A stretch of 32,335 nucleotides of DNA from an uncultured Oceanisphaera sp. (GTDB lineage Bacteria > Pseudomonadota > Gammaproteobacteria > Enterobacterales > Aeromonadaceae), in NCBI RefSeq assembly GCF_947495715.1, contig NZ_CANLZU010000029.1:1-32335 (forward strand). The letters run 5' to 3'. A program made the position numbers and the translations under genes. The notes beneath the pieces were generated by a model that made no database searches, was not told the DNA's origin, and saw only the letters and a program-made list of their open reading frames with translations. Shown here piece by piece: positions 11,834 through 31,817 of the stretch; position 1 is the stretch's first letter, and each line of letters opens with the position of its first letter.

Positions 11834-12140
11834 TGCCCTGCTCCTTGCTTTAACGGCTTTGACATGCGGTATTAATTACAGGAAGACAGACATTCTTGAT
11901 TGAATGTTTGCTGATTAAAAATACAGTAAGGTATACATTTTAATTGATAAATGCTGACAATAAACAAGTGTTCTTAATGTGCAGCTTTCCAGGTTGCACG
12001 GTAGGGTTTTGTTATGCTTTATCCCTTCATCAAGAAAATCTTCAATCTGTTTATTAAGAGATAGCTGATTGACTAACTATATAAGTACGATAGAGTTGAG
12101 AGAAGCAACTTTAACTTATCGGAATTGATAATAAAATATT
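11834..12140. promoter_or_regulatory. Divergent promoter region between the module A Rieske gene and its LysR regulator
   Basis: 307 bp, AT-rich, no gene. It contains ACATTC-TTGATT-GAATGT (11890-11907) and GTGCA-N11-TGCAC (11979-11999). The second has the arm spacing common for LysR-type operators. These are the best operator candidates seen, but neither is verified. Confidence 0.45.
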
Positions 12141-13130: not shown

Positions 13131-13540
13131 GCCGCGGAGGGTATCTTTATTGCGGGCCAGCAATCCGCGTGGCCCGAGAGCAATATTACTTTTGGCTCCA
13201 CTTGGTGCTTTATTCTATTTTATGAAAATGCACATTCTTTTTCTGCCATTACTCAGCGGCATTGCTTATTCGAATTTCTCTGGGGTTATCCCGGGATAAC
13301 CAGCAGGATGCACATGGTCAAAGTTTCATTCCAAGCCTGCCTGTCTGCAGGCTTTTTGTTTTTTATCCTCATGATTGGATAACCCAAGGTTATGTTTATC
13401 CTTCAATAAAAGTGTGTTGTGGCGTCCGGTAGCTCTTGGTTAATCTTGCCTTAATGAAATTAACCGAGCCCTGCCGGGATATTGAATATCCCTTGTGCAG
13501 ACATTTAAGACGATATGATACAGGGATATAGGTGATTAAC
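13131..13540. promoter_or_regulatory. Upstream region of the DapA-like operon, rich in palindromes
   Basis: 410 bp with a terminator at 13333-13364 and four dyads: GGTTATCCCGGGATAACC (13284-13301, perfect), ATAACC-CAA-GGTTAT (13379-13393), GGTTAAT-N14-ATTAACC (13438-13465) and GGGATATT-G-AATATCCC (13476-13492, perfect). The last lies about 50 bp before the start codon, where a repressor or activator would act. A 25-codon frame (13222-13299) exists, but nothing supports it as a gene. Confidence 0.6.
13333..13364 (+). terminator. Rho-independent terminator after LysR A
   Basis: AAGCCTGC-CTGTCT-GCAGGCTT followed by TTTTTGTTTTTT. It lies 200 bp after the lysR stop and separates the regulator from the catabolic operon. 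Confidence 0.85.
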
Positions 13541-14464
13541 ATGCAATTCAAGGGAATTTACACACCAGTCATCACGCCGTTTGCCGAGGATTACAGCATT
13601 GATTATCAGGCCTTCACGGCACTGATTGATCATCTGGTCGATGCCGGTGTGCACGGCATTATCGTCGGTGGTACTACCGGTGAATATTACGTTGAAACGT
13701 TGGACGAGCGGGTCCGCCTGCTGCAGTTGGCCATCGAGCGTTGTGCCGGGCGGATACCTGTCATCTTTGGTACCGGCTCTATCAATCCGGATGAATCTAT
13801 TGCGCTGGCAGAGGCTGCTGCCAAGCAGGGAGCCGATGCGATCCTGGTGGCCACTCCTCCCTATTCATTGCCAACGGAGCATGAAGTGGCGCAGCACATT
13901 CTCGCCGTCGATCGCGCCGCGGACTTGCCGATTATGCTGTACAACTACCCGGCCCGTATGGGGGTGACGATGGGCGAGGCGTGTCTCGACGAGATTGCAT
14001 CTTCCAAAAACATTTGTGCGATCAAGGAAAGTTCCGGCGATATTAACCGCCTGCACTTGCTGGTCAATGATTATCCGCAACTGCAGTTGTCCTGCGGCAT
14101 GGATGATCAGGCGCTGGAGTATTTTGCCTGGGGTGCTCAAAGCTGGGTTTGCGCCGGCTCCAATTTCCTCGCTAAAGAGCATGTTGCCTTGTACAACGCC
14201 TGTGTGGTGGAAGGGGATTTCAACAAGGGGCGCCGCATCATGGCGGCCATGATGCCGCTGATGAGCGTACTGGAGCAGGGTGGCAAGTTCATCCAGAGCG
14301 TCAAGCACGGCGTGACCCTGTCCGGGCATTTTGCCGGTGTGACCCGCAAGCCCCTGTATGGTCTGAACCAGGATGAGCAGGATTCACTGGCGCAGGTGGT
14401 TTCTACCCTCAAGCGCACGATTGCCGATATCCAGGCGGAAAGTGCCGTTTTTGCGAAGGAGGCA
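13541..14464 (+). CDS. DapA-family (dihydrodipicolinate synthase/N-acetylneuraminate lyase superfamily) lyase or deaminase
   Basis: About 308 residues; the ATG at 13541 is chosen because AGGTG lies seven bases upstream, and a GTG three codons earlier is possible. It is a class I aldolase-type TIM barrel with the family landmarks: GGTTGE (residues 43-48), catalytic Tyr134 in MLYNYP and Schiff-base Lys162 in AIKESS. The superfamily includes DapA, N-acetylneuraminate lyase, keto-deoxy-sugar dehydratases and the hydroxyproline-pathway deaminase that yields alpha-ketoglutarate semialdehyde. Lysine synthesis is unlikely here, because the gene leads a catabolic operon whose next gene, three to six bases downstream, is an aldehyde dehydrogenase. 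A dehydratase or deaminase producing a semialdehyde fits that pairing. The precise substrate is inference. Confidence 0.8.
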
Positions 14465-14470
14465 TAAGCC

Positions 14471-15961
14471 ATGAGCGAACTGTTGACCCGGGAACAATAC
14501 CACGCCATCGCTGCAGACCTGCAATTGCCGACCCAGAGCTTTATCGACGGTCGCTTCCGTCCGGCTCTGTCCGGCAATACCCTGCCAACCGTCAACCCGG
14601 CTACCGGTGACGTGCTGACAAATATCGCTGCCTGTAACGCCGAAGACGTCGACTTCGCGGTGCAGAAAGCCCGCGCGGCGTTTGATGACGGTCGCTGGAG
14701 CAACCTGCATCCGGGCGAGCGCAAGGCGGTACTGTTGCAGCTGGCCGAGCTGATGGAGCAGCACAGCCGCGAGCTGGCGGTACTGGAAAGCCTCGACTCC
14801 GGCAAACCGGTTGCCGAGTGTGAGACCGTTGATGTGCCCGAAACCATCCACTTTATTCGGTGGCACGCCGAATCCACCGACAAAATCTACGATCAAACCG
14901 CGCCGGTTGGTTCCGATGCGGTGGCGATGGTGGTGCGTGAGCCGATCGGCGTGGTGGGTGCGGTACTGCCCTGGAACTTCCCGTTGCTGATGCTGGGCTG
15001 GAAACTGGGCCCGGCGCTGGCGGCCGGTTGTACCGTGGTGCTCAAACCCGCCATTCAGACCTCGCTGACCGCCCTGCGTGTGGCCGAACTGGCGCACGAA
15101 GCCGGCCTGCCGAACGGGGTGCTGAACGTGATCACCGGCCGTGGCTCCGAGGTAGGGGCTGCCATAGGACGTCATCCGGATGTGGACATGGTGACCTTCA
15201 CCGGCTCCACCGAAACCGGTCGTCTGTTCCTGAACTACGCCGCCGAGTCCAACCTGAAAGAGGTGGTGCTCGAGTGCGGTGGCAAGAACCCCTGTGTCGT
15301 ACTGGACGACGCCGAAGATCTGGATGCGGTGGCCGAACACGTGGTGGCGGCGGCGTTCTGGAACATGGGTGAGAACTGCTCTGCCGGCTCGCGCCTTATC
15401 GTGCACGAAAACATCAAGGATGCCCTGCTGGAGCGGGTGTGTGCTCACACCCGCGAATGGCGTACCGGTGACCCGCTGGATCCGGCCAACAAGCTGGGGG
15501 CCCTGGTCGATAAAGGGCACTTCGATAAAGTGGTGAGTTACCTGAATCGAGGCAAGGAAGACGGTCACACCCTGTTGCTGGGCGGCGAGTCGATGGAAGG
15601 CAATTTTGTGCCGCCGACTATTTTCGACGGCGTGAAGAATGGCGATGCGCTGGCGCGGGAAGAGATCTTCGGCCCGATACTGGTCGTGATCACCGTGGCC
15701 AGCGTCGAGGAGGCCATTGCGGTAGCCAACGACACCGACTACGGCCTGGCCGCCTCGGTGTTTACGGCCAATGCCAAAAAAGCGCTGCGTGCAGCCCGGG
15801 CCATTCGTGCCGGTACCGTCACGGTGAACTGTTTCGGTGAAGGAGATGCGACGACGCCTTTTGGTGGCTACAAGCAGTCCGGCTTCGGCGGACGCGACAA
15901 TTCTCTGCACGCCCACGATCAGTATACCCAACTGAAAACCGTCTGGATTGACCTGAGCTAA
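14471..15961 (+). CDS. NAD(P)-dependent aldehyde dehydrogenase (PuuC-like), module A
   Basis: 496 residues, full length for the ALDH superfamily. Catalytic residues are visible: Cys303 in GENCSAG, general base Glu268 in VLECGGK, oxyanion Asn169 in PWNFPL and cofactor Lys192 in LKPA. By recalled sequence it is nearest to gamma-glutamyl-gamma-aminobutyraldehyde dehydrogenase PuuC (for example the ending QYTQLKTVWIDL and FGGYKQSGFGGRDNSLHA). It begins just after the DapA-like gene, implying translational coupling and a shared pathway, probably oxidising the semialdehyde that enzyme releases. It could alternatively oxidise an aldehyde formed by the FAD oxidoreductase encoded next. NAD versus NADP preference cannot be told. 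Confidence 0.88.
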   Translation: MSELLTREQYHAIAADLQLPTQSFIDGRFRPALSGNTLPTVNPATGDVLTNIAACNAEDVDFAVQKARAAFDDGRWSNLHPGERKAVLLQLAELMEQHSRELAVLESLDSGKPVAECETVDVPETIHFIRWHAESTDKIYDQTAPVGSDAVAMVVREPIGVVGAVLPWNFPLLMLGWKLGPALAAGCTVVLKPAIQTSLTALRVAELAHEAGLPNGVLNVITGRGSEVGAAIGRHPDVDMVTFTGSTETGRLFLNYAAESNLKEVVLECGGKNPCVVLDDAEDLDAVAEHVVAAAFWNMGENCSAGSRLIVHENIKDALLERVCAHTREWRTGDPLDPANKLGALVDKGHFDKVVSYLNRGKEDGHTLLLGGESMEGNFVPPTIFDGVKNGDALAREEIFGPILVVITVASVEEAIAVANDTDYGLAASVFTANAKKALRAARAIRAGTVTVNCFGEGDATTPFGGYKQSGFGGRDNSLHAHDQYTQLKTVWIDLS

Positions 15962-15974
15962 GAACCCGAGAGCG

Positions 15975-16026
15975 CCCGGCATGATGCCGGGGATCTTCTC
16001 TGACCCGGGCCGCCGGCCCGGGTCAG
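15975..16026 (+). other. Two strong hairpins between the ALDH and FAD oxidoreductase genes
   Basis: CCCGGCAT-G-ATGCCGGG (15975-15991) is followed by CTGACCCGGGCC-GCC-GGCCCGGGTCAG (16000-16026), a perfect 12-bp stem. Neither has a T-run. They lie within the operon, 33 bases or more before the next start, and may set the ratio of upstream to downstream transcript. Confidence 0.75.
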
Positions 16027-16059
16027 GTTCCACCGTTTCTCCCCGAGAGGAACCAGAGA

Positions 16060-17406
16060 ATGACCAAAACGATAAATGTCAGCCGCATCCCTAAAGACAC
16101 GGGGCCTGCCGGCTGGAATCAGATACTCCCCTCCGCAAAACACTACCCTCAGCTGAAGGAAGATATCCAAGCTGAATGGGTGGTGGTCGGTGGAGGATTT
16201 GCGGGCATTGCCGCCGCGCGACGGTTGAGTCAGTTGACCGGCAATGACCGCATCGTCTTGCTGGAAGCCAACCGTTTGGCGGAAGGGCCGGCGGGACGTA
16301 ACAGCGGCTTCATGATTGACCTGCCTCATGAGCTGAATTCGGAGACTTATGCCGGTGCGGCGGAAGCGGATCTACAACAGATCCGGCTTAACCGGACGGC
16401 CATCGACTTTGCCCGCCAGATGGCGGAAGAGTTTGAGATGCCCAAACGGGTATTTGACCCCTGTGGCAAAGTCACAGGGGCTGCCTCGGCCAAAGGCGAA
16501 CAGCATATCGATAGCTATGTGAACCATCTCGGCAGCCTGGGTGAGCAGTACCGGTTGCTGACGGCGGCCGAGATGAAAGAGCGGACGGGTACCGATTATT
16601 ATCGCAAGGGGCTGTTTACCCCCGGTGCCGTGATGATCCAGCCGGCGGCCTATATCCGGATGGCGGCAGAGGGGATTTCCGGACGGGTGTCCATTTATGA
16701 GCAAAGCCCGGTACTGGCAATGGAGCTGGGCGACGAGCATGTGCTGACCACGCCGGGGGCCAAAATTCGTGCCCGGAACGTGATCCTGGCGGTAAACGGA
16801 CATATTCAGTCGTTCGGGTTTTTCCCTCGTCAGTTGTTGCATGTGTTTACTTATGCATCTATGACCCGGGCTCTGAGTCCGGCAGAGGTGGCGCGGCTGG
16901 GCGGCCAGCCCGACTGGGGCGTACTACCGGCCGATCCCATGGGCACCACGGTGCGCCGGGTCTCGAGCCTGATGGGCAGTGGCGACCGGGTGACGGTACG
17001 CAACCGCTTTACCCTGAACCAGTCGATGGAGATATCACAGCGGCATATAAAGGAGGTGGCGCGGGCCCATGACAAGTCCTTCGCCACCCGTTTTCCCATG
17101 CTGGACGGGGTGCCGATGGAACATCGCTGGGGGGGGCGGCTCTGCCTGTCCTGGAATTCGGTGCCGGCGTTCGGCGAGCTGGAGGAGCGAGTCTTTTCCG
17201 CTGCCTGCCAGAACGGCCTGGGAACGGTAAAGGGCACCCTGTCCGGAATGATGGCGGCGGAGCTGGCGGTGCGTCGTCAATCGCCGCTGCTGGAAGAGTT
17301 TACCCGTTGCGACGCGCCGCGCCGGCTGCCACCCGAGCCCTTTCTGTCGGTGGGCGCTAATATGACCATGCGCTGGAAAGAATGGCTGGCGGGTATCGAG
17401 TTGTGA
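16060..17406 (+). CDS. DAO-family FAD-dependent oxidoreductase (gamma-glutamylputrescine oxidase/N-demethylase-like), module A
   Basis: 448 residues. An unusual ~38-residue N-terminal segment precedes the FAD-binding Rossmann motif VVVGGGFAGIAAARRLSQL, followed by the ribose-binding Glu in LLEANRLAEG and the GPAGRNSGFMIDLPHE segment typical of this subgroup. The C-terminal WGGRLCLSWNSVPAFGEL and QNGLGTVKGTLSGM are conserved DAO features. Members oxidise secondary or tertiary amines (PuuB, N-methyl amino acid demethylases). In this operon the likely task is oxidising the dimethyl- or monomethyl-amino acid left by the Rieske demethylase. It is a paralogue of the enzyme at 24490-25809. No signal peptide or covalent-FAD His is evident. 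The substrate is unassigned. Confidence 0.82.
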   Translation: MTKTINVSRIPKDTGPAGWNQILPSAKHYPQLKEDIQAEWVVVGGGFAGIAAARRLSQLTGNDRIVLLEANRLAEGPAGRNSGFMIDLPHELNSETYAGAAEADLQQIRLNRTAIDFARQMAEEFEMPKRVFDPCGKVTGAASAKGEQHIDSYVNHLGSLGEQYRLLTAAEMKERTGTDYYRKGLFTPGAVMIQPAAYIRMAAEGISGRVSIYEQSPVLAMELGDEHVLTTPGAKIRARNVILAVNGHIQSFGFFPRQLLHVFTYASMTRALSPAEVARLGGQPDWGVLPADPMGTTVRRVSSLMGSGDRVTVRNRFTLNQSMEISQRHIKEVARAHDKSFATRFPMLDGVPMEHRWGGRLCLSWNSVPAFGELEERVFSAACQNGLGTVKGTLSGMMAAELAVRRQSPLLEEFTRCDAPRRLPPEPFLSVGANMTMRWKEWLAGIEL

Positions 17407-17469
17407 TTGCCGACCGCATCTATTGTTTTGCCGGGCAGGCAGTGAACAGGTTTGAACAAGGAGTATGCC

Positions 17470-18582
17470 ATGAGTATTAACACTGCCGAGTTTCTTAACC
17501 CGGTGAATACCCAGACCTGGGAAAATGGTCGACATCTGGTTCGTTGTGTCAAGGTCATACAAGAAACCCATGATGTCTGCACCTTTACCTTCGGCATGGG
17601 GCAGCCGGTGCTGTTTTTCTTCAAGCCGGGTCAGTTTGTGACCCTGGAACTGGAGATTGAGGGTGAGCGGGTCATGCGCTCCTATACCATTTCCAGCTCT
17701 CCTTCCATTCCCTACAGTTTTTCGATCACGGTGAAACGGGTGCCCGGGGGCGTGGTATCGAATTGGTTGCATGACAGCTTGCAACCCGGCGATCAGCTGG
17801 CGGTGCATGGTCCGGTAGGACAGTTCAACTGTCTGGATTACCCGGCTGACAAGGTGCTGCTGCTGTCGGGCGGCGTGGGCATTACTCCGGTGATGTCGAT
17901 GGCGCGCTGGTGGTTCAACACCGACTCCGAAGTGGACATGGTGTTTGCCCACAGCGCCAGGACGCCCAGCGACATGATCTATGGCCATGAACTGGAATAC
18001 ATGTCGTCACGCATTGACAACTTCCGGCTGCACCTGATCTGCGAACGAATTGACGTAGGCCAGTCATGGAGTGGCTACCGGGGGTATATGGGACGGTCGA
18101 TGCTGGAGCTGATTGCCCCGGACTTTCTCGAGCGGGAAGTCTTCTGTTGTGGCCCTGCGCCCTACATGAAGGCGGTGCGAAACCTGCTTGAAGACGCCGG
18201 TTTCGATATGCGGCATTACCATGAGGAATCGTTCGGCGCAACGCCCGTCGAGGACATCCAACAGGCGGAAGTACACGCGGATGAAGCCGAGGTGCTGGAA
18301 GCCGAGCAGGAGCTGCTGGAAACGGTGGCGGTCAGTTTTGCCGATTCAGATGTCAGCATCGATGTGGTGATGGGTACCAACCTCAACGAGGCGGCCCTCG
18401 AGGCTGGGGTGAGCATTCCCAAGGCCTGCGGCATGGGGATCTGTGGCGCCTGCCGGGTGAAGGTGAATGCCGGCCAGTATGACATGGAGCATAACGGCGG
18501 TATTAGCGAGGCAGAGATTGCCGACGGTTATGTGCTGTCCTGCTGCACCAAAGTCAACGGGGCCATGGAGGTCGAATACTGA
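17470..18582 (+). CDS. Rieske oxygenase reductase, ferredoxin reductase fused to 2Fe-2S ferredoxin (GbcB-like), module A
   Basis: 370 residues from the ATG at 17470, with AAGGAG six bases upstream; an upstream TTG is unlikely. Order of domains: FAD-binding barrel with RSYTISSSP (70-78), nucleotide-binding domain with LLSGGVGITP (131-140) and CCGPAPYM (226-233), an acidic linker (about 260-285) and a plant-type 2Fe-2S domain with Cys320, Cys325, Cys328 and Cys358. It passes electrons from NAD(P)H to the Rieske oxygenase. The nearest remembered proteins are GbcB and the carnitine and stachydrine demethylase reductases. It is the last gene of the module A operon and is followed by a terminator at 18617. 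It is closely similar to the enzyme at 23303-24403. Its partner is probably the oxygenase at 10607-11833, which lies in a separate transcript. Confidence 0.88.
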   Translation: MSINTAEFLNPVNTQTWENGRHLVRCVKVIQETHDVCTFTFGMGQPVLFFFKPGQFVTLELEIEGERVMRSYTISSSPSIPYSFSITVKRVPGGVVSNWLHDSLQPGDQLAVHGPVGQFNCLDYPADKVLLLSGGVGITPVMSMARWWFNTDSEVDMVFAHSARTPSDMIYGHELEYMSSRIDNFRLHLICERIDVGQSWSGYRGYMGRSMLELIAPDFLEREVFCCGPAPYMKAVRNLLEDAGFDMRHYHEESFGATPVEDIQQAEVHADEAEVLEAEQELLETVAVSFADSDVSIDVVMGTNLNEAALEAGVSIPKACGMGICGACRVKVNAGQYDMEHNGGISEAEIADGYVLSCCTKVNGAMEVEY

Positions 18583-19847: not shown

Positions 19848-21525
19848 TCAGGATAGATTCCGCAGGGGGGATTTTGCCCGCTGGCGTTGCTGCCATTGCT
19901 CATCCATCCCCACTTCCGCCACCGAGGGCGCCAGCGGCGTCTTGCCCAGGATCAGATCTGCGGCCCGCTCTGCCACCATGATGGTGGGCGAGTTCAGGTT
20001 GCCGTTGGGAATGGTGGGGAAAATGGACGAGTCCACCACCCGGAGGCCCTGTATGCCGTGCACCCGGGTGTCCGGGCCTACCACGGCCCGCTCGTCCGTG
20101 CCCATGGGGCAGGTGCAGGTGGGGTGATAGGCGCTTTCTACCGCCTGGCGCACGAAGGCATCTATCTCGTCATCGGTCTTGATCTGCTCGCCGGGCTGGA
20201 TTTCCTCCGCCCGGTAAGGGTCCACCGCCGGCTGGTTGATGATCTCCCGGGTGCAGGCGCGAAAGCCTTCCCGGTCGTCTTCGTGCTCCAGATAGTTGAA
20301 GCGTATTTTCGGCGCCACGCTGGGGTCGGCACTGGCCACCTTGACCGTGCCGCGGCTTTTCGGCTTGTTATGGCCGATATGCAGCTGAAAATCGTGGCCG
20401 GAAAAGGCTTCCTTGCCGTCGTAGCGCATCGCCGCCGGCAAAAAGTGGTACTGCAGATCCGGCCATTCGACACCGGCTTTGGAGCGTATGAAACCACAGG
20501 ACTCGAAGTGGTTGGTGGCACCCAGGCCGTCTTTTTTCAGCAACCAGCGGCTGCCTATCTTGAACTTGCTCCACAGCCCCAGCTGACCGTTGAGGGAGAT
20601 GGGCTGCTTGCAGCGAAACTGGAAGTAGAACTCCAGATGATCCTGCAGGTTTTCGCCCACGCCGGGCAGCTCGTGCTGGAGTGGAATACTGGCCGCCTCC
20701 AGGGGGGCTCTGGCACCGATGCCCGACAACTGCAGCAGGTGCGGCGAGCCGATGGAGCCGGCGCTGAGGATCACTTCCTTACCGGCCCGTACTTCCTGCA
20801 CCTGCACCTGACCCTGCCGCTCGTAACGCACGCCCACCGCCTGTTTGTCTTCCAGCAGCACCTTGTGCACCAGGGCATGGGTGACCACGGTCAGGTTGGG
20901 GCGGTTCATGGCCGGGCGCAGGTAGGCGTTGGCGGTAGACCAGCGCCTGCCGTGCTTCACCGTCATGTGCATGGGGCCGAAGCCTTCCTGCTGGCGGCCG
21001 TTGTAGTCGGGGGTATGAAAATAACCGGCTTCCTGCCCCGCATCGACAAAGGCCTGGTACAGGGGGTTTTTCATGTTGTTGCCGTTGTTGACCCCGAGCG
21101 GGCCCTGGTCGCCCGGTAGTCGTCACCCCCGAAGGCCCAGCTTTCGGCTTTCTTGAAGTAGGGCAGGCAGTGGGCATAGTCCCAGCCCTCGGCGCCTCGG
21201 CTCTGCCATTCGTCGAAGTCCCGGGCGTGGCCGCACACATAGACCATGCCGTTGATGGAGGAAGCCCCCCCAGTACCTTGCCGCGGGGGCAGTGCATGAC
21301 CTGGTTGTCGAGAAAGGACTCGGGCTCGCTGTGAAACTGCCAGGCGTATTTCTTGGTGTTCATGGGAATGGACAGAGCAGTGAGCATCTGAATGAAAATG
21401 CTCTTGCCGCTGCTGCCGGTTTCCAGCAGCAGTACCTTGCTGGTGCCGTCTTCGGTGAGGCGGTTGGCCAGCACACAACCGGCGGAGCCGGCGCCCACTA
21501 TGATGTAGTCGAATGCGTTGTTCAT
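19848..21525 (-). pseudogene. betA: Choline dehydrogenase, interrupted by two single-base frameshifts
   Basis: BetA oxidises choline to betaine aldehyde at the membrane with FAD. The start at 21525 has GAGG seven bases upstream and opens with the GMC-oxidoreductase motif [19 protein letters not shown]. Frame breaks are at the C7 run 21265-21271 (after CPRGKVLGG) and near CCC 21112-21114 (after GGDDYR). Adding one G on the coding strand at each restores [16 protein letters not shown] and then [12 protein letters not shown], giving a single frame of about 559 residues, the normal BetA length. The C-terminus retains GMC signatures such as [21 protein letters not shown] and [11 protein letters not shown]. 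Both gaps fall in homopolymers with no other damage, so base-calling error is as likely as a young pseudogene. It follows betB by 21 bases. Confidence 0.88.
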
Positions 21526-23302: not shown

Positions 23303-24403
23303 TTAATAAGCAACGACCAGATCTTTCTCCGGGATGCTACAGCAGCTGAGGATATATCCTTCGGCGATATCGTCCTCGGAAATGCCTCCGTTATGTTCCA
23401 TGGTCACCTCGCCGGATACTTTGAGTACCTTGCAGGTACCGCAGATACCCATGCCGCAGGCCTTGGGAATATAGAGCCCCAGCTTGGAGGCTGCGCTATG
23501 TACGGTTTCACCCGGGGCAATTTTGACACTTTTACCCGATTGGGCGAACTCGACCCGCAGCATATCCTCGCTGACCAGGTTGTCGCTTTCTTCCTGGGCC
23601 AGCTCAATCTGTTCGGCCACATCTGTCTTGACCTCATCCGGCGTTGCCCCGAAGCTTTCTTCGTGATAGCGCTCCATGGGAAACCCCTGGCGTTCGAGCA
23701 TGGCTTTAATGGCACGCATATAAGGAGTCGGCCCGCAGCAGAAAATTTCCCTGTCCATAAAGTCGGGAGCGATCAGCCTGAGCATGTCTTCTCCCAGATA
23801 ACCGGTAAAGCCGCTCCAGGTATCACCGATCTCATAGCGCTCGCAGATCAAATTAAGGTTAAAGTTAGTTACGCGTGAGTCCATGTGTTCCAGCTCACGG
23901 CGGAAGATAATGTCCTTGGGGGTGCGCGAGCTGTGTACAAATACCATGTCCACCTCGGCGTTGCTGTCGAACCACCAGCGGGCCATGGACATCACCGGTG
24001 TGATGCCTACGCCACCGGAAAGCAGCAGCACCTTGTCGGCCGAGTGGTCGATACAGTTGAAATCGCCGACCGGGCCATGCACCGCAACTTCATGACCTTC
24101 CAGCAGGTGATCATGTAGCCAGTTAGAAACCAGGCCGCCCGGGACCCGTTTGATGGTGATGGAAAAGCTGTAGGGAAGCGAGGGGGAGGACGAAATGGTG
24201 TAGCTACGCATCACTGGCCGCCCGTCGATTTCCAGCTCCAAAGTGACAAATTGGCCCGGTTTAAAGAAAAACATCACCGGCTGCTCGGCCATAAAGCAAA
24301 AGGTTCTTACATCCCAGGTTTCCTGGATGACCTTGACGCAGCGCACCAGATGACGGCCATTGACCCAGGTCTGGGTATTAACAGAGTGTACAGAAGGGGT
24401 CAT
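23303..24403 (-). CDS. Rieske oxygenase reductase, ferredoxin reductase fused to 2Fe-2S ferredoxin (GbcB-like), module B
   Basis: 366 residues from the ATG at 24403, preceded by AGAGAG, which aligns with the start of the module A paralogue (VNTQTW-NGRHLVRCVKVIQET in both). An in-frame ATG at 24493 overlaps the upstream stop as ATGA but would add 30 unrelated residues. Domains: FAD site RSYTISSSP, nucleotide site LLSGGVGITP, CCGPTPYM, and a C-terminal 2Fe-2S domain with Cys316, Cys321, Cys324 and Cys354. It should deliver electrons to the module B Rieske oxygenase (30582-31817) or to either oxygenase. It is the second gene after the FAD oxidoreductase. Downstream lies the IS/betI scar rather than a terminator, so transcripts might run on into betBA. 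Confidence 0.88.
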   Translation of the reverse strand: MTPSVHSVNTQTWVNGRHLVRCVKVIQETWDVRTFCFMAEQPVMFFFKPGQFVTLELEIDGRPVMRSYTISSSPSLPYSFSITIKRVPGGLVSNWLHDHLLEGHEVAVHGPVGDFNCIDHSADKVLLLSGGVGITPVMSMARWWFDSNAEVDMVFVHSSRTPKDIIFRRELEHMDSRVTNFNLNLICERYEIGDTWSGFTGYLGEDMLRLIAPDFMDREIFCCGPTPYMRAIKAMLERQGFPMERYHEESFGATPDEVKTDVAEQIELAQEESDNLVSEDMLRVEFAQSGKSVKIAPGETVHSAASKLGLYIPKACGMGICGTCKVLKVSGEVTMEHNGGISEDDIAEGYILSCCSIPEKDLVVAY

Positions 24404-24489
24404 GATTGTTGCTCTCTTGGGAAAATCAATGGATTCGGAATTAAGGAAAAGTCCCCGGCTATACCTGATGGCTATGGCCGAGGAAGCCT

Positions 24490-25809
24490 TCATATTTCAC
24501 CAGCTGCCTTGCCTGCTTCGTAATGGAGCCGGATGCGGGCACCCACGGAACGAAGGGGATCAGGTGGCACCCAGCTGGGCTGGTTGTGCCGGCGGATAAA
24601 GTCGAGTTCGTCACTGTCACGACCAGCAATCCATTCGGCCAGGTAATAGCCCAAGTAGGTGCCCTTTGCGACCCCGACCCCGTTCATGCCGCTGAGCGCA
24701 TACAGGTTATCTGCCGACTGCTGGAACAAAGACTGGTGATTGAGAGTCATGCACAGCATACCTCCCCAGGTATATTCGAAGTCGAGTTCGCTGAGTTCCG
24801 GGAAGCGGGCGGAGAACGATGCCCGGTGTTGCTTCCAGGCCCGATCCAGGGTGTGCTGATCGGTCCGCAGCGAGGTTTCGAAGCTGAAGCTATTGCGGAT
24901 AAAAATGCGTCTGTCCGGGGTCAGACGTACCGTAGTGCCTGCAGGATGCGCAGAGGTCAGGCCCCAGGGAGCAGTATCCGGGAAATACTGCCCGGCCTGA
25001 GCCTCGCTCATGGGGCGGGTCAGGCTGGCATAGGTGAACACCGGCGCCAGGCGCTGCTGGAACAGACCAAACTCCTCGCCAAATGAATTGGTGCTGAGCA
25101 CCAGCGTGTTGGCTTCAATCTCGCCACCCAGGAAACGGGCTCGGTGGGGGCTGCCATATTCGATGCCGGTGACCGGGCTGTTCTCAAACAGGGTGACATT
25201 GGCGGGCAGCGCCAGCGCCACCCCCTGGGCCAGGGCCGCCGGGTTCATCAGTATGTTATCCGGTGTGTACACGGCCTTCTGGTAATACCCCGTTCCCAGC
25301 CGCTGCTGTAATGCGGAGCCTTCGATGACTTCATAGGGGGTATTTAGTGTATCCAGGGTTTTGGTGAAGCTATCGAGATGGCATAAGTTGCTGGCTTCAT
25401 GAGCGGCAAAATACTTGCCTGTTTTCTGCCATGAGCAATCGATGCCGTTTTGCTGGCGGATCTGATCCAGGCGGCTAATGGCAAAGCGGTTGAGCTGATA
25501 GATCTTTTTGTCTATCTCGGGGTCGGCATTGGCATCCAGGTTATGGGGCAGATCTATGATAAAGCCGGCATTCCTGCCCGAGGTACCCTGGCCGACACGC
25601 AAAGCATCGACCAGAGCAATACGGCTGTCGGGCCATAGTTCGGCCAGGTGGCCGGCGGTAGAGAGGCCGGAGAAGCCGGCACCGATAATAAGCACATCGA
25701 ACTTATGCTTGCCTTTTAGCCGGTCCCCCTTGGTGTGTCCGGTTAACGGAGATGTTTCATACCAACCGAGTTCACCATCGATGGCAGGAAGGCGATGTAT
25801 CTTTTTCAT
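24490..25809 (-). CDS. DAO-family FAD-dependent oxidoreductase, module B
   Basis: 439 residues. FAD-binding motif VLIIGAGFSGLSTAGHLAEL at about 39-58, then GTSGRNAGFIIDLPHNLD, the same subgroup signature as the module A enzyme. The C-terminal part has YTWGGMLCMTLNHQSLF and SGMNGVGVAKGTYLGYYLAEW. The two proteins are clear paralogues along their whole length but well diverged, suggesting different amine substrates. Probable role: oxidative demethylation or deamination of the partly demethylated betaine (for example dimethylglycine or N-methylproline). It forms a two-gene unit with the reductase downstream and is divergent from the LysR at 26032, which likely controls it. PuuB-like oxidase activity on another amine is an alternative. 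Confidence 0.82.
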   Translation of the reverse strand: MKKIHRLPAIDGELGWYETSPLTGHTKGDRLKGKHKFDVLIIGAGFSGLSTAGHLAELWPDSRIALVDALRVGQGTSGRNAGFIIDLPHNLDANADPEIDKKIYQLNRFAISRLDQIRQQNGIDCSWQKTGKYFAAHEASNLCHLDSFTKTLDTLNTPYEVIEGSALQQRLGTGYYQKAVYTPDNILMNPAALAQGVALALPANVTLFENSPVTGIEYGSPHRARFLGGEIEANTLVLSTNSFGEEFGLFQQRLAPVFTYASLTRPMSEAQAGQYFPDTAPWGLTSAHPAGTTVRLTPDRRIFIRNSFSFETSLRTDQHTLDRAWKQHRASFSARFPELSELDFEYTWGGMLCMTLNHQSLFQQSADNLYALSGMNGVGVAKGTYLGYYLAEWIAGRDSDELDFIRRHNQPSWVPPDPLRSVGARIRLHYEAGKAAGEI

Positions 25810-26031: not shown

Positions 26032-26985
26032 ATGAAGCCCCTGTTTAAGCAATTGCCACCGTTGCTGACTCTTACCTTTTTCGAGGCCGCTGCCAGGCAC
26101 GGCAGCTTTACTCGTGCTGCCGACGAGCTGTGCGTGACTCAGAGTGCGGTCAGTAAGCAGATCAAGTTGCTGGAGGAATATCTGGGGATCGAGGTGTTTT
26201 ATCGAGAGCGGCGGCAGGTGGTGCTGACCGATGATGGCCAGAAGCTGTTTATCGATGTAAAAATGGTGTTGGGGCAGTTGGCGGACAGTTGCAACCAGAT
26301 CCGCTCACACGTCTACAGTAAGAATATTACTATCGTTTCAACGGTTGCGATGGCAAATTACTGGTTGTTTCCCCGCATTGCCCGCTTCAACATGGAATAT
26401 CCTGATATTAATATCAATATCTATGCCACCGACGATATCGATGAAGAACATTGTCGCAAGTCGGATTTGGGGATCCTTTACGGTTATGACAAGTGGCAGA
26501 CAAACCTGACCGGGCACTATCTTTTCCGTGAGCGTATTTACCCCATCTGTGCCTATGATATGCCATTGACCGAGATAAATACGCCCGAAGACTTGCTGAA
26601 TAACCGCATCGTTCATTTTGACCCCTTGAAGTGGCGTTGGATGAACTGGGGCGACTGGTTCAGTTACTTTGGTATTCATTACCATGTTCCTTCAAACTCG
26701 TTGATTTTTAACCAGGTCCCTTTGGCGGTCAATGCTGCTCTGAAAGGGATGGGGATCACCCTAGGTTGGGAGTTCATGCTCAAGGAGATGCTGGAAAACC
26801 GTTTTATCAAGATAGCCGGAGATTTTTATGTCGAAACCGGCCGGGCCGATTACCTGGTTTACAGCACGACAAAACCCTTGTCGGCTTCGGCCGGTATCTT
26901 TCGTGACTGGTTGCTGAATGACGCCGAGAAGGATGTAGCTCAGCTGGATGCCATCGTCAACAACATCGATATACAGGCCGACTGA
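26032..26985 (+). CDS. LysR-family transcriptional regulator (GcvA-like), module B
   Basis: 317 residues. The helix-turn-helix at about residues 15-70 includes GSFTRAADELCVTQSAVSKQIKLLEEYLG, followed by a substrate-binding-like effector domain with several Trp/Tyr residues (KWRWMNWGDWFSYFGIHYH) in the centre. The DNA-binding helix is close to that of the module A regulator (FTRAAEALCVTQAAISRQI). It is transcribed divergently from the FAD oxidoreductase/reductase pair across about 220 bp and convergently with ridA, so it probably controls the module B genes in response to a betaine-type effector. No terminator is obvious in the 76 bp before the end of ridA. Confidence 0.86.
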   Translation: MKPLFKQLPPLLTLTFFEAAARHGSFTRAADELCVTQSAVSKQIKLLEEYLGIEVFYRERRQVVLTDDGQKLFIDVKMVLGQLADSCNQIRSHVYSKNITIVSTVAMANYWLFPRIARFNMEYPDININIYATDDIDEEHCRKSDLGILYGYDKWQTNLTGHYLFRERIYPICAYDMPLTEINTPEDLLNNRIVHFDPLKWRWMNWGDWFSYFGIHYHVPSNSLIFNQVPLAVNAALKGMGITLGWEFMLKEMLENRFIKIAGDFYVETGRADYLVYSTTKPLSASAGIFRDWLLNDAEKDVAQLDAIVNNIDIQAD

Positions 26986-27061: not shown

Positions 27062-27424
27062 TCAAGCTTGCGGCGTTGCCAACGCCACGGCCTGAGCCTC
27101 GATAAGGTAGCCCGGATCTGCCAGTGCCGATTGTACACAGGCTCTGGTGGGTTGGTGCGAATTATCCAGCCAGGCTTCATAGACTTCATTCATCTCATCG
27201 AAATGACTCATGTCACTGAGCCAGATATTGACGCTGATTAATCGCGATTTGTCTGAGAGGGAAACTGACAACAGCCTTTCTATTTTTGCCAGTACCTCTG
27301 TGGTCTGTTGTCGGATATCGCCCTGCAGGTTGTCGGCGACCTGACCCGACAGGAAAACGAAGTTATTGACCGCTACCGTCTGGCTCATGCGCGGGCTGCT
27401 TTCTTTACGTAAGATAGTCGTCAT
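27062..27424 (-). CDS. RidA-family (YjgF/UK114) enamine/imine deaminase
   Basis: 120 residues from the ATG at 27424; the longer frame to 27505 adds a non-homologous tail overlapping the BCCT gene. The short alpha/beta fold shows VNNFVFLSGQVADN near residue 20, an LSDMSHFDEMNEVYEAW segment, and the C-terminal PTRACVQSALADPGYLIEAQAVAL, with the Arg and Glu positions used for imine hydrolysis. RidA proteins hydrolyse reactive imines and enamines released by PLP enzymes and amine oxidases. Next to a FAD amine oxidoreductase this is a sensible clean-up function. It follows the BCCT gene by about 80 bp on the same strand. Confidence 0.83.
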   Translation of the reverse strand: MTTILRKESSPRMSQTVAVNNFVFLSGQVADNLQGDIRQQTTEVLAKIERLLSVSLSDKSRLISVNIWLSDMSHFDEMNEVYEAWLDNSHQPTRACVQSALADPGYLIEAQAVALATPQA

Positions 27425-27501
27425 CTTGGTTTCCAGTAATAAGTATGGATTTTGGTTTATATTATTTTTAATAAAGCGGGCGGGAATTACCCGCCCGAAT
27501 C

Positions 27502-29136
27502 TCACACCGGCTCAGTTTGTATTCTCGCGCCCTGTCTTCTGGTAAACGCAGATCTTAGGGTGCCGAGACACATCAGTATCATGATCACCGAGAAGGGTAG
27601 CGCACCTATGACCATGGCCGTTTGAATGGCACTGAGGCCACCGGCCAGCATCAGTGAGCCCACCACCAGGGTAAGGATGCTTCCCCAGATCACGCGGTGA
27701 CTGACACCAGGTTGGTCGTTACCGCCCGCCATGATGGTGTTCAATACCAGCACGCCGGAGTCCGCCGACGTGACCAGGTAGGTCAGGATCAGCAGGATAA
27801 CCATCAGCGACATGGCCATGGCTGCCTCGGCCGGCAGCAGCTGCTGCAGAGTCACGAACATCTGGGATTCGATGGCCGAGCCTATAATGCTGCCGTTGGC
27901 GCCGCCGTTCAGCTCCAGATCCAGGGCGGTACCGCCCAGCAGGGCGAACCAGAAGGCACACATCAGGGTCGGAATGATCATGGCACCCATGACGAATTCC
28001 CGAATGGTGCGGCCCCTGGAAATGCGTGCCAGAAACAACCCGACGAAGGGAGCGAAGGCGATCCACCAGGCCCAGTAATAGATGGTCCAGCTACCCTGCC
28101 ATTGACCCAGTTTTGACTCTCTGTCCCAGACGGTAAAGCTCATTGCCGGCAGTTCGATCAGATAATCGGTCAGGCCGCTGATATAGGTTGAGAAGGCAAA
28201 ACCGGTGGATCCGAAGATAATAAACACCGCCAACAGGATAAAGGACAGCGTCAGGTTGATATTACTCAGCCATTTGACACCTTTTCCGACGCCGGTCATG
28301 GCCGACAGGGTAGACAGGCCCATCACCAGTAGCAGGGCGAGCACCATGGCCGTGCTGGTGGGTTTACCCTCATCATTCAATAACCAGGCAGCACCGGTGA
28401 CGCTTTCAAAGCCGGAAATCAGCTGTAGCACGCCGGTACCGACAGTGGTAGAAATCCCCAGTACGGTCGCCACCACGGCGATGATATCGATGGCATGTCC
28501 CAGAGAGCCGTTCAGCCGGTCACCAAACAACGGGGTCAGGGCGGAGCGAATGGTCAGCGGCAGGTTCAGTCGATAGGCGAAATAGGCCATGGCCAGGCCG
28601 ACAGAAACATAGATACCCCAGGCATGCAGCCCCCAGTGGAGGAAGGAGAAGCGCATGGCGGATTCCACGGTATCGGCGGTGTTAGCGCTGACCGCCCCCT
28701 TGATCACTTCCGGATTACCGGCAAAGTGATACATGGGCTCACCGATGGAGTAAAACATCAGCCCTATGCCCATGCCGGCACCGAACATCATGGCAAACCA
28801 GGAAAAGTTGGAAAATTCCGGTCGCTCCCGATCCTGCCCCAGCTTTATTTTACCCAGTGGGCTAAGTGCCATGGCAAGGCAGAAAATAAGAAACAGGCTG
28901 ACGGAGATAATATAATAGGAATTAAACGTCGAAAGTAGTGCGGTATTAACTATGCCCAGTGCTTCCGTCGCTTTGTTCGGCATGACGATGGCAAACAATA
29001 CCAGCGTAACAATAATAACCTTGCTGATAATGGTAATCGTTGGATTCAGGCCCTTATAGAATCCCTTTTTAGAGGTGTGTATGTTGACTTCTATATCAAC
29101 ATCAACGGGGTTGTTTGCTGTGTATTCCTTAAGCAT
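27502..29136 (-). CDS. BCCT-family betaine/carnitine/choline/DMSP transporter
   Basis: 544 residues with about 12 membrane helices after a ~35-residue cytoplasmic N-terminus. Signatures include FGAGMGIGLMFYSIGEPMYHF (the glycine-rich segment of helix 3), the long WTIYYWAWWIAFAPFVGLFL with the Trp residues of the substrate box, and ARISRGRTIREF just after it, all standard for BCCT carriers. Substrates in the family are quaternary ammonium compounds and DMSP (DddT is a BCCT protein). The extended charged C-terminal osmosensor of BetP is absent, as the protein ends soon after helix 12, pointing to a feeding rather than osmosensing role. It lies between ridA and a DddP-like lyase gene; a terminator at 29243-29272 separates it from the latter, so it needs its own promoter in 29137-29240. 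Confidence 0.9.
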   Translation of the reverse strand: MLKEYTANNPVDVDIEVNIHTSKKGFYKGLNPTITIISKVIIVTLVLFAIVMPNKATEALGIVNTALLSTFNSYYIISVSLFLIFCLAMALSPLGKIKLGQDRERPEFSNFSWFAMMFGAGMGIGLMFYSIGEPMYHFAGNPEVIKGAVSANTADTVESAMRFSFLHWGLHAWGIYVSVGLAMAYFAYRLNLPLTIRSALTPLFGDRLNGSLGHAIDIIAVVATVLGISTTVGTGVLQLISGFESVTGAAWLLNDEGKPTSTAMVLALLLVMGLSTLSAMTGVGKGVKWLSNINLTLSFILLAVFIIFGSTGFAFSTYISGLTDYLIELPAMSFTVWDRESKLGQWQGSWTIYYWAWWIAFAPFVGLFLARISRGRTIREFVMGAMIIPTLMCAFWFALLGGTALDLELNGGANGSIIGSAIESQMFVTLQQLLPAEAAMAMSLMVILLILTYLVTSADSGVLVLNTIMAGGNDQPGVSHRVIWGSILTLVVGSLMLAGGLSAIQTAMVIGALPFSVIMILMCLGTLRSAFTRRQGARIQTEPV

Positions 29137-29242: not shown

Positions 29243-29272
29243 AAAAAAGGCTGTGGGTCATATCCCACAGCC
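29243..29272 (-). terminator. Rho-independent terminator after dddP
   Basis: On the minus strand GGCTGTGGG-ATATGA-CCCACAGCC is followed by TTTTTT. It begins eight bases after the dddP stop, so the Rieske-dddP unit ends here and the BCCT gene is transcribed separately. Confidence 0.9.
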
Positions 29273-29279
29273 CGAAGCC

Positions 29280-30530
29280 TTAGATGAGCCAGCCCTCTTC
29301 CCAGCGGTAGCTGGAAAGCGGCACGCATCCATCTTTGGTGATCAGTACCTGTTCCTCCAGCTTGATACCTTCTTTTCCACCTTCTACGGCGATACAGCTT
29401 TCGATGCAAATAGTCATATTTTCTTCGAAAACTCCGTCATATCCCGACTTTTCCCAATCGTCGCCAGCATGGGCAATGGCCGGGTATTCATCCGCCATGC
29501 CGATACCATGGGCCACGCAGCAATAGCGGTTCTTGTAGAACTCATCGGAAATGGACCAGCTCTTGTCTACAAATTCCTTGATGCTCATCCCGGCTCTCAG
29601 AATATCCATGTTGTGGTGTATTTGTTGATAGGCGGCGCTGTAGAGGCGACGCTGTTCGTCCGTGGGGCGTACATGGCCCACTGTCCAGGCGCGGGAGATA
29701 TCGGCGCAATAGCCGTAGGGTCCAATCATATCCGTATCGAAGGCGATAATTTCCCCTTCGTTCATCACCCGGTTGCTGCATTCCTGCATCCAGGGGTTGG
29801 TACGCGGGCCTGAGGCCAGCAGGCGGGTTTCGATCCACTCGCCGCCATTACGGATGTTTTCGAAGTGCAGATAGGCCCACAGTTCCTGCTCGGTCATGCC
29901 CGGGCGAAGTTCGTCGGACATCCGCTGGATGCCGTGTTCGCATACGGTGATGGTCCATTTCATCAACTCGAGCTCTTCCGCCGATTTAACGGAGCGGGCC
30001 TGCTCCAGCAGGGGTTGGCCCTGCTGGAGCTGAACCCCCAGGGCATTGAGGCAGGGCACGCCTTCCGGCTCCATCTTGTCGACCGCCAGGCGCATGTTTC
30101 CGCCTCCGTGTTGCCGGAGCAGGTCGGCGATCTCTGCCGCCCATATCTTGGCCTTTTCCGAAACCCGTGGGCCGGCACCAAAATAGGCCCAGTTGATAGC
30201 CATGCGCACTTCATCCACGGTTTCTAGGTGTTCGCACAGGTGCTCACAGTTGTGGAATTCCCAGATGATCACCGGCCCATCGGCAAAGACCATGGCATAA
30301 CGGGAGGCGTTGTGGGCGGTCCAGACCTGCATATTAGATGCATCGGTGGCGTACCGGATATTGACAGGATCATAGAGCAGCACGGCCGAACAGTCGTTCT
30401 TGACCAGTTGTTCCCTGACCCGTTGCAGGCGATAGGCCCTGGCCGCCCTGTGTGTTTCTTCCGATACCGGGTTCTTGAGTGGCTGATCCTTGGCGATATC
30501 ATTGAGATATGAATTCTTGGTTTCGAACAT
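29280..30530 (-). CDS. dddP: DddP-family DMSP lyase (M24 metallopeptidase fold)
   Basis: 416 residues of the M24/creatinase fold. Diagnostic segments shared with marine DddP are LLYDPVNIRYATDASNMQVW and GGEWIETRLLASGPRTNPW. The six metal ligands of Ruegeria lacuscaerulensis DddP, as I recall them (Asp295, 297, 307, His371, Glu406, 421), fall on Asp265, 267, 277, His341, Glu377 and Glu392 at a constant offset of 29-30. Catalytic Asp377 falls on Asp347 (HGIGMADEYP) and Tyr366 on Tyr336. DddP cleaves dimethylsulfoniopropionate to DMS and acrylate in the cytoplasm. It lies 51 bases after the module B Rieske gene, probably in one transcript, and is followed by a terminator. Related creatinase-type hydrolases are the main alternative, but the active-site match argues for lyase chemistry on DMSP or a close analogue. 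Confidence 0.82.
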   Translation of the reverse strand: MFETKNSYLNDIAKDQPLKNPVSEETHRAARAYRLQRVREQLVKNDCSAVLLYDPVNIRYATDASNMQVWTAHNASRYAMVFADGPVIIWEFHNCEHLCEHLETVDEVRMAINWAYFGAGPRVSEKAKIWAAEIADLLRQHGGGNMRLAVDKMEPEGVPCLNALGVQLQQGQPLLEQARSVKSAEELELMKWTITVCEHGIQRMSDELRPGMTEQELWAYLHFENIRNGGEWIETRLLASGPRTNPWMQECSNRVMNEGEIIAFDTDMIGPYGYCADISRAWTVGHVRPTDEQRRLYSAAYQQIHHNMDILRAGMSIKEFVDKSWSISDEFYKNRYCCVAHGIGMADEYPAIAHAGDDWEKSGYDGVFEENMTICIESCIAVEGGKEGIKLEEQVLITKDGCVPLSSYRWEEGWLI

Positions 30531-30581
30531 GTTTTTACCTACCGAAAAAGGTGCGATTGAGCCGATGAGAACGAATCTCTG

Positions 30582-31817
30582 TTAAATACCGGATTGCAAC
30601 TGCTTGATGTACCAGCCGATGAAATTCATCACCAAGCCTTCGGTTTCTTCCGAATACTGTCCCGGCCGGTATGCGTCGGAACGAATGCCGGCATAGTTGA
30701 TTTCTGCCAGCCATCTGTCCTGGTCATTGGTCTTGACCCACACATGAGTCAGGTTATCCAAGTCATAGTCGACCCCTTCCTGAGCGTCTTCATGCACCAG
30801 CCAGCGAGTGCGCACTAGGGTTTCGTCCTCCGAAAGGGGGATGACCATGGTGGTGACCACATGGTCACACATGAAGTGGTGCCAGGAGTTGTAATGGGTC
30901 CACATGGACAGGTCGCTGTTGTCTGGTTCGCTGAAACCGGGCAGCAGTTTCTTGCAGGCCAGTTCGCCGTTCATGGTCTGCGACAGGGCACCGTTTTCCA
31001 GGATCATCATCATGGCGCGATACCAGCGATCCTCGGTCAGATCCAGCGGCTCGTGGGCCATGCCCATGTTGTCCCATTGGGGGCGTTTGACTGCATAGGC
31101 CTCGTCTATCTTCTGGGCGATGGCGGCGGCTTCCCGGGGGTCGTCCGGCCAGCCGAATCCGGCACCAAACGGAGGCCAGCTTTTCAGCAGCTCGGGGTGG
31201 TTGGCGTTGCAGTGATAGCACTCCCGGTTATTTTCCACCACCAGTTTCCAGTTGGCCTTTTCGATGATGTCGATCTCTTTGGCGACCTTGAGCTTGTCCA
31301 GCTGATAGAAGCCCACATAGGGAGCGAGATCCGCCTTCATCTTCTCTATGTCGGTATAGGAGGGGTCTTCCGACAGGTTGATAAACAGCAGACCGGCGAT
31401 CGACTCGATAGCGACCGGCTTGAGGCCATTGCCCTTGCAGGAGAAGGACTCACCCATGCGTCCGGCGTAGATTAAGTCGCCGTTCAGGTTATATGTCCAC
31501 TGGTGGTAGGGGCAGACCAGGTTGGGCACATTACCTTTGTCGGTGGTACAGATCTGGGCCCCTCGATGGCGGCAGGAGTTATGGAAGGCGCGGATCTCGC
31601 CCTGTTGATCCCGAACCAGTATGATGGAGTTGTTATCCACCTGAACCACCCTGAACTCGCCCTTTTTCTTGAATTCGGATACCACGCCGGCATAAATCCA
31701 GGTTTTCTTGAATACCTGCTCCATATCGAATTTGAACATCTCTTTGGATGTATAAAAATCGGCCGGTAATCCCTGACTATGGCGATATTGACGTAACAGC
31801 TCAGTGATGTTTTCCAT
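30582..31817 (-). CDS. Rieske oxygenase, quaternary ammonium N-demethylase alpha subunit, module B
   Basis: 411 residues; GAGGA lies seven bases before the ATG. Rieske ligands are Cys82, His84, Cys102 and His105; the catalytic iron ligands are probably His202, His207 and Asp318 (CDHV); the linking residue is Glu199 (ENNRECYHCNANHPELL), as in carnitine monooxygenase and GbcA. Compared with the module A enzyme it has an extra segment around residues 210-265 (PPFGAGFGWPDDPREAAAIAQ...), which lines the region expected to shape substrate choice. By recalled similarity it is at least as close to glycine betaine GbcA (SHPELL region, CKKLL.G, VDYDLDNL). It heads a two-gene unit with dddP. Its reductase partner is likely at 23303-24403. 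Confidence 0.85.
   Translation of the reverse strand: MENITELLRQYRHSQGLPADFYTSKEMFKFDMEQVFKKTWIYAGVVSEFKKKGEFRVVQVDNNSIILVRDQQGEIRAFHNSCRHRGAQICTTDKGNVPNLVCPYHQWTYNLNGDLIYAGRMGESFSCKGNGLKPVAIESIAGLLFINLSEDPSYTDIEKMKADLAPYVGFYQLDKLKVAKEIDIIEKANWKLVVENNRECYHCNANHPELLKSWPPFGAGFGWPDDPREAAAIAQKIDEAYAVKRPQWDNMGMAHEPLDLTEDRWYRAMMMILENGALSQTMNGELACKKLLPGFSEPDNSDLSMWTHYNSWHHFMCDHVVTTMVIPLSEDETLVRTRWLVHEDAQEGVDYDLDNLTHVWVKTNDQDRWLAEINYAGIRSDAYRPGQYSEETEGLVMNFIGWYIKQLQSGI

Follow-up and report, generated by a model that had tools for sequence, protein, structure and literature searches.

The 32,335-nt stretch of DNA examined here, called the window below, is the entire contig C29 (NZ_CANLZU010000029.1) of the 3.65-Mb genome of an uncultured Oceanisphaera sp. 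It carries on the reverse strand a pair of genes, for a Rieske non-haem iron oxygenase of the GbcA/Stc2 family (30582..31817, 411 aa) and for a DddP-like M24 protein (29280..30530, 416 aa). DddP is known as a lyase of dimethylsulfoniopropionate (DMSP). We suggest, with a probability of about 0.5, that the DddP-like enzyme would act as a lyase within a betaine-demethylation pathway, with DMSP as a secondary or shared substrate. This is favoured over a plain DMSP lyase, which appears the less probable of the two, and the choice rests on the neighbouring genes, not on chemistry. Relatives of the protein, here called clade II, lie beside several unrelated enzymes that demethylate or oxidise betaines, which hints at betaines as the substrates of the clade, either in place of DMSP or together with it. 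The original prediction, made from the letters alone, had noticed this pair at 29280..31817. The two open reading frames proved real, 51 nt apart, and so the observation was confirmed, while its first interpretation was partly supported.

The closest PDB structures to the DddP-like protein were the DddP lyases 4b28 (340 bits) and 4rzy (331 bits), and its best NCBIfam model was likewise DddP (NF043017), so that the predicted membership in the DddP family was upheld. The model score of 427.1 bits, however, is under the curated cut-off of 600. Seven 448-aa proteins of congeners scored 626.5–633.3 on the same model, Paracoccus 853 and SAR116 592.7. The N-terminal extension of the canonical DddP is missing, and the match begins at residue 29 of the protein and position 53 of the 443 of the profile. 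By these comparisons, the window protein is a member of the DddP (M24) family, with a fold evident from sequence alone, yet not a standard DddP.

Trp70 of the window protein aligns with a Trp common to both solved DddP lyases, which we take to be the substrate-binding Trp95. The six metal ligands are all kept (D265, D267, D277, H341, E377 and E392). In the numbering of RdDddP found in the available part of PMC4108388, D295, D297, D307 and H371 are equivalent to the first four of these, and Y366 and D377 to Y336 and D347 of the window, at an offset of 30, while E406 and E421 are equivalent to E377 and E392 at an offset of 29. The Tyr366/Asp377 pair was proposed there as catalytic. The metal and catalytic residues that had been claimed were thus present, and the constant offset claimed for them was right to one residue. 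Loss of a catalytic residue was rejected, as the full set is kept. Elsewhere, the Asp377 equivalent is replaced by Val in L016 and by Gly in L017, L101 and three Bacillaceae proteins. Of the six proteins with such a change (L016, L017, L101, L069, L078 and L090), several are found near betaine-type genes or transporters, and they possibly have another activity.

The M24 fold also fits a prolidase- or creatinase-like hydrolase, which would free proline- or hydroxyproline-type substrates for the adjoining pathway, and genes of the hydroxyproline type are found in the vicinity of several clade II members and, in the window, at a distance of 11 kb. However, peptidase and ectoine-hydrolase models reached at most 59 bits on the window protein against 427 for DddP, the next PDB molecule after the DddP lyases was a Thermotoga aminopeptidase with 73 bits against 340, and the Tyr/Asp pair of DddP is kept. 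It is also reported, in the part of PMC5395565 available, that RlDddP had no measurable activity on valine-proline. The peptidase or creatinase identity that the original prediction had named as its refutation was not borne out by these scores, and we regard a hydrolase as unlikely.

In a tree of 54 sequences, the window protein was placed in a group of 29 (clade II) apart from the solved lyases and their kin, with support of 100/100. Forcing clade II and RdDddP together made the tree 396 log-likelihood units worse (approximately unbiased test, p 1.2e-170). An earlier tree of 103 sequences had shown the identical split, with 50 sequences in clade II (SH-aLRT 98), and membership of clade II was assigned after viewing that tree. 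The smaller tree is a selection whose unchosen sequences include long-branch ones, and the clade II sequences are not independent: L062 and L102 are identical, and three are the window protein and its orthologues. L004 and L006 (copies of the window) were left out, the frame-broken L045 was omitted from both trees and from the neighbour counts, and DddP1 and DddP2 of Oceanimonas doudoroffii and the HWgs001 DddP are not among the tree sequences. The phylogeny that had been proposed as a check, here run against the solved DddP lyases, therefore gave a separate clade. The name 'DddP-type DMSP lyase' holds for the family type, but DMSP lyase is not established, given a score short of the curated DddP cut-off and a position in a separate clade.

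In addition, 37 aligned positions separated 32 canonical proteins (at least 90% with one residue) from 47 clade II proteins (at least 80% with another), in a comparison made without L033, L034 and L042. At five of these, clade II has Tyr or Trp and the canonical proteins have no aromatic Tyr, Trp or Phe: Tyr78 stands against Ala, Tyr274 against Ile, Trp114 against Leu, Trp192 against Cys and Trp325 against His. Clade II genes are also present in strains of Rhizobium leguminosarum. The clade II-type gene of Halomonas sp. KAO (L045, 10001-11244) lies in two overlapping pieces in different frames.

The Rieske partner had been predicted to be of the quaternary-ammonium oxygenase type, and our comparisons agreed with this. 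It has the Rieske and Ring_hydroxyl_A domains, and it reached 452 bits on the GbcA model NF058607, under the cut-off of 670. The closest PDB entries were 3vca/4qup ('Ring-hydroxylating dioxygenase' / 'Monoxygenase; demethylase'), presumably the stachydrine demethylase Stc2, and 3n0q. The genome has three GbcA-like genes, and the window Rieske is 43% and 45% identical to the other two. A role as the housekeeping GbcA is disfavoured, as some GbcA-like gene is found in 15 of 23 same-genus genomes (E <= 1e-60) and the orthologue of the window gene in 3 of 23. An orthologue of the DddP-like protein occurs in exactly the same three genomes, the window's own, G021 (95% identity) and G004 (90%), where the Rieske orthologues are 100, 95 and 91% identical, respectively. 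The other 20 genomes gave no close orthologue of either, the best matches being at most 50% identical for the DddP-like protein and at most 47% for the Rieske. The order Rieske-dddP-BCCT-RidA-LysR-DAO is kept in both G021 and G004, with GbcB after DAO in G004, while GbcB was not seen at that place in G021. Because the gene order recurs in both other genomes with the DddP orthologue, the pairing appears to be more than chance.

The neighbours of DddP relatives in other bacteria were surveyed by a contig scan for DddP-like loci (best 80 of at least 586 confirmed). We counted four partner types from three unrelated families, namely GbcA-like Rieske, 'RieCnt' Rieske, MTTB methyltransferase and 2-oxoglutarate (2OG) oxygenase. 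They were detected by tblastn with single representatives, which distant partners can escape, at E <= 1e-20 in this first survey and at E <= 1e-10 in the Leisingera family and the window's class. Distances were taken from match end to match end, the flanks of several loci are truncated, and the Rieske of L007 and L008 was entered by hand in the first-survey counts. A Rieske, MTTB or 2OG gene was found within 3 kb in 34/50 clade II rows, within 6 kb in 35/50 and within 10 kb in 38/50. The survey of Rieske-dddP adjacency that had been proposed thus gave three genomes in the genus and, with MTTB and 2OG genes counted along with Rieske, most of clade II. The suggestion that the clade acts on a betaine-derived substrate gained clade-wide support from the 35 rows with a partner within 6 kb.

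In the Leisingera family, a partner lay within 6 kb in 14 of the 20 below-cut-off DddP regions and in none of the 28 top-scoring ones (Fisher p 8e-8). The latter are a non-random sample, the 20 top-scoring regions and 8 of the next 10 from 69 over-cut-off rows; the former are 20 of 23 rows, the others being L046 itself, a row of 585 bits and a row truncated by the end of its contig, and 4 of the 14 are weak (32-33% identity) or within a DddP tandem. All nine below-cut-off regions that best match the clade II protein of L046 have a partner. Both kinds of DddP occur together in Leisingera ANG1 and Tropicibacter R16_0. One locus of this family (L157, G110:C832) has a tandem of three genes of the DddP family, of which two pass the cut-off and the third does not, plus a 2OG gene.

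The partners differ from locus to locus. In the Rhizobium locus viewed with its annotation, the clade II gene is preceded by Rieske and reductase genes and followed by genes for 4-hydroxyproline epimerase, a betaine ABC transporter, DAO, aldehyde dehydrogenase and a DapA-like protein. Two Burkholderiaceae loci (Paraburkholderia and Caballeronia) have the clade II gene near a Rieske gene and a GbcB-like reductase gene, and the reductases of Rhizobium and Paraburkholderia, the two that were scored, stay under the GbcB cut-off of 500 with 320 and 339 bits, respectively. Ten rows, for the most part from Alphaproteobacteria, have a 2OG gene whose end lies 20-143 nt ahead of the clade II gene. The 2OG partner of L046 (9189-9974) had weak Pfam matches only, of the HalD/WelO5 type, and is not a proven demethylase; the PDB gave nothing for it at E <= 0.01, and neither did NCBIfam at E <= 1e-30. 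The MTTB partner of L029, the one tested, resembles 4yyc and the glycine betaine methyltransferase 9yce.

Several observations weigh against a betaine role for the clade. As judged from the alignment, the window protein has every residue to which a part in DMSP cleavage is ascribed, and at 10 of the 37 group-specific positions the 448-aa/SAR116 group has the clade II residue. None of the four partner types was found within 6 kb in 15/50 clade II rows. Such neighbours also occur outside clade II, as 18/51 non-clade-II rows have one at that distance (11 MTTB and 7 RieCnt). A weak contrast was seen in the window's class, with a partner near 1 of 12 over-cut-off and 6 of 20 below-cut-off DddPs (12 of 12 and 20 of 22 rows sampled, respectively). 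Among glycine betaine, proline betaine, hydroxyproline betaine, carnitine and beta-alanine betaine, none could be singled out as fitting every neighbourhood.

The congeners add to these points. The 448-aa DddP is present in seven of the 23 same-genus genomes, over the cut-off in all seven. Six of them have it no more than 6 kb from a Rieske gene of the same contig, beside a cluster of LysR-BCCT-RieCnt-aldehyde dehydrogenase-rubredoxin reductase genes, to which DAO and EutQ are added if the sequence extends far enough; the seventh (G015) has DddP and RieCnt at opposite ends of one contig. The orthologous RieCnt cluster is found in four Pseudomonas loci with a clade II DddP replacing the 448-aa type, at 54-77% identity to the genus loci for the non-BCCT genes and 37-47% for BCCT. 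The same RieCnt-cluster genes occur with a clade II type DddP in Oceanospirillum L021 and Halomonas L045, the latter assigned by 74% identity and not by tree. As both DddP types stand beside the same Rieske cluster, one shared function is the simplest explanation, and the seven over-cut-off proteins, six of them beside this cluster, weigh against a clean split. RieCnt is present in 14 of the 23 genomes, and 7 of these 14, the window's own included, lack the 448-aa DddP, so that DddP there is accessory and not an obligate step; six of the 14 clusters were viewed whole.

An alternative is a genuine DMSP lyase, whose operon would join DMSP cleavage to the demethylation of N-betaines because the same carriers import both osmolytes. 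Besides the complete catalytic constellation and the interchange of clade II and over-cut-off DddPs beside the RieCnt cluster, the genome itself points to DMSP use. A protein of 837 aa encoded on its contig C7 (L122, 3772-12510, G000:C7) has two CoA-transferase III domains and shares 79% identity with its counterpart on the Pseudomonas MPC6 plasmid. Genes for BCCT, an iron alcohol dehydrogenase, methylmalonate-semialdehyde dehydrogenase and LysR lie beside it, which is a dddD-type arrangement. From this arrangement we take the protein to be a probable DddD; no NCBIfam model for DddD matched it. On the MPC6 plasmid, the dddD-type set adjoins a clade II cluster. Therefore, DMSP use by the organism is likely whatever the DddP-like protein does.

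According to the available text of PMC10989825, the HWgs001 DddP is active on DMSP and 55% identical to O. doudoroffii DddP2. Its numbering (Asp263/265/275, His339) implies a short N-terminus, probably like that of the window protein. Because this enzyme is active on DMSP, the plain DMSP lyase reading stays strong. Fragments of PMC12093977 also report that BCCTs of Vibrio natriegens transport glycine betaine and DMSP alike. The joint use of DMSP and N-betaines that had been suggested stays plausible in view of the dddD-type cluster, the congener DddPs beside the Rieske cluster and the HWgs001 activity.

Against a DMSP lyase, none of the 50 clade II rows had a match to an acrylyl-CoA reductase (YhdH/AcuI family) at E <= 1e-20 up to 10 kb away; three SAR116 DddPs have such a match at 1.2-1.3 kb. 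Clade II is also common in soil and plant bacteria, and a Rieske oxygenase is not known to us to take part in the use of DMSP. R. leguminosarum J391 served as library host for lyases of dimethylsulfoxonium propionate in the part of PMC10686828 available, and strains of this species carry clade II genes. On balance, a genuine DMSP lyase is a serious possibility, and the lyase within betaine demethylation is preferred to it.

The Rieske and dddP-like genes would form a two-gene transcript, as suggested by their common strand, the 51-nt gap (30531..30581, alike in length and sequence in the three species), the order kept in all three genomes and a hairpin after the pair. This intrinsic-terminator-like hairpin with a T-rich tail (29248..29273, reverse strand) starts 6 nt past the dddP stop. 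Its stem is kept in the three species through changes on both sides, and its T-tract is shorter in G004. Since the terminator-like hairpin is conserved, the BCCT gene 143 nt downstream (27502..29136, reverse strand, 544 aa) is probably a separate unit. A single transcript including BCCT is disfavoured by the hairpin, although promoter and terminator motif counts in the region were not above those of shuffles. The BCCT gene reported next door is therefore there, but probably not in the same transcript.

From this arrangement we infer the co-transcription, chemistry, substrate and order of steps of the following pathway. The BCCT (and ProU) carriers would bring in betaines. A GbcB-type reductase encoded 6 kb away probably feeds the Rieske oxygenase, which may take an N-methyl group oxidatively off a quaternary betaine, used either instead of glycine betaine or alongside it. 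In the DddP-like enzyme, with the chemistry carried over from DddP, the two-metal centre would bind the carboxylate and Asp347 would take the alpha proton, so that the beta group leaves. Its main substrate may be the betaine of the pathway or the demethylation product, and the cleavage of DMSP to dimethyl sulfide and acrylate would be secondary or shared. The FAD (flavin adenine dinucleotide) oxidase and RidA would carry the breakdown onward.

The rest of the window is consistent with such a pathway, and the region is a betaine-osmolyte island. The BCCT product scored 432 bits on TIGR00842 (cut-off 407.55) and 489 on the glycine-betaine BCCT model, under that model's cut-off of 650. Model and domain matches identified a RidA-like protein (27062..27505, reverse), a GcvA-like LysR-type regulator (26032..26985, forward) and a DAO-family FAD oxidase (24490..25809, reverse; no PDB match at E <= 1e-10). 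The GbcB-type reductase (23303..24493, reverse; 680 bits, cut-off 500) is a possible electron donor for a GbcA-type Rieske. Beyond it are betB and betA, the latter (choline dehydrogenase, 19848-21525, reverse) in two overlapping frames that match model positions 3-90 and 156-559, by either a frame break or a sequencing error. Genes for a GbcA-like Rieske (509 bits, cut-off 670), LysR, a DapA-like protein, aldehyde dehydrogenase, DAO and another GbcB (670 bits, cut-off 500) make up a second cluster (10607-18582). ProU is encoded at 6.8-10.0 kb.

By its gene content, the second cluster looks like one for hydroxyproline(-betaine) breakdown, and neither its vicinity nor the genome gave a match to 4-hydroxyproline epimerase. 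Such a gap could be filled if the DddP-like protein were an epimerase or racemase of proline-type betaines, which would abstract the same alpha proton without elimination, the chemistry presumably being identical up to the enolate. However, the empty search had no positive control, enolase-superfamily genes of the genome (G000) could serve instead, and some clade II loci hold an epimerase-type gene as well. We consider this very unlikely, the least likely of the readings, and prefer a lyase in betaine demethylation.

It is tempting to extend this to the whole family, with its root in N-betaine catabolism, clade II (and its relatives next to MTTB, Rieske and 2OG genes) as lyases of betaines or betaine-derived amines in series with interchangeable demethylases and the DMSP lyases of Roseobacters as a specialised offshoot, although we find this doubtful. 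The Roseobacter DMSP-lyase regions examined were free of demethylase-type neighbours, and Roseobacter DMSP lyases have a millimolar Km for DMSP. If the family is so rooted, environmental dddP counts that include clade II overstate DMSP cleavage; PMC10686828 reports that, of the ddd genes of bacteria in data from the ocean, about 65% are dddP. If the clade is wired into betaine demethylation, the annotation of such genes as DMSP lyase is unsafe. If clade II cleaves DMSP, possible DMS production widens to many soil and plant-associated bacteria.

A literature search, with most subscription papers outside its coverage, gave no paper joining DddP and Rieske, with or without betaine, and none on hydroxyproline betaine with Rieske and demethylase. 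Among the known systems, the DddP lyases (RdDddP 4b28; RlDddP 4rzy/4rzz/4s00/4s01; NF043017) share with the window protein the M24 fold, the six ligands, the Tyr366/Asp377 equivalents and the conserved Trp. The window protein differs in its score below 600, the lack of the N-terminal extension, its separate clade, the 37 group-specific positions and its Rieske partner. The review PMC7876524, in its available part, places a homologue of DddP within a cluster of four genes in Vibrio species and reads it as a likely DMSP lyase from sequence alone; it is alike in having a DddP homologue in a conserved cluster of osmolyte-using Gammaproteobacteria, compared here without its other genes.

The window Rieske resembles GbcA/Stc2 (3vca, 4qup) in its Rieske and catalytic domains, as its closest solved relatives, and in the GbcB-type reductase gene 6 kb off, but it differs in its score (452 < 670), in being one of three in the genome and in its link to dddP. 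The hydroxyproline/proline betaine pathway of PMC4113996 uses 4-hydroxyproline epimerase, a DapA-type deaminase, DAO and aldehyde dehydrogenase; its text has neither the term M24 nor Rieske. Rhizobium has genes for enzymes of these kinds next to clade II genes, and the window has them, apart from the epimerase, at a distance of 11 kb. The RieCnt-aldehyde dehydrogenase-rubredoxin reductase-DAO-EutQ-BCCT cluster of Pseudomonas, Oceanospirillum, Halomonas and the window's own genus is alike in combining Rieske, reductase, DAO, BCCT, LysR and DddP. It takes a DddP of either clade, its RieCnt gene is also found in genomes without the 448-aa DddP, and the window locus differs from it in having another Rieske type and another reductase.

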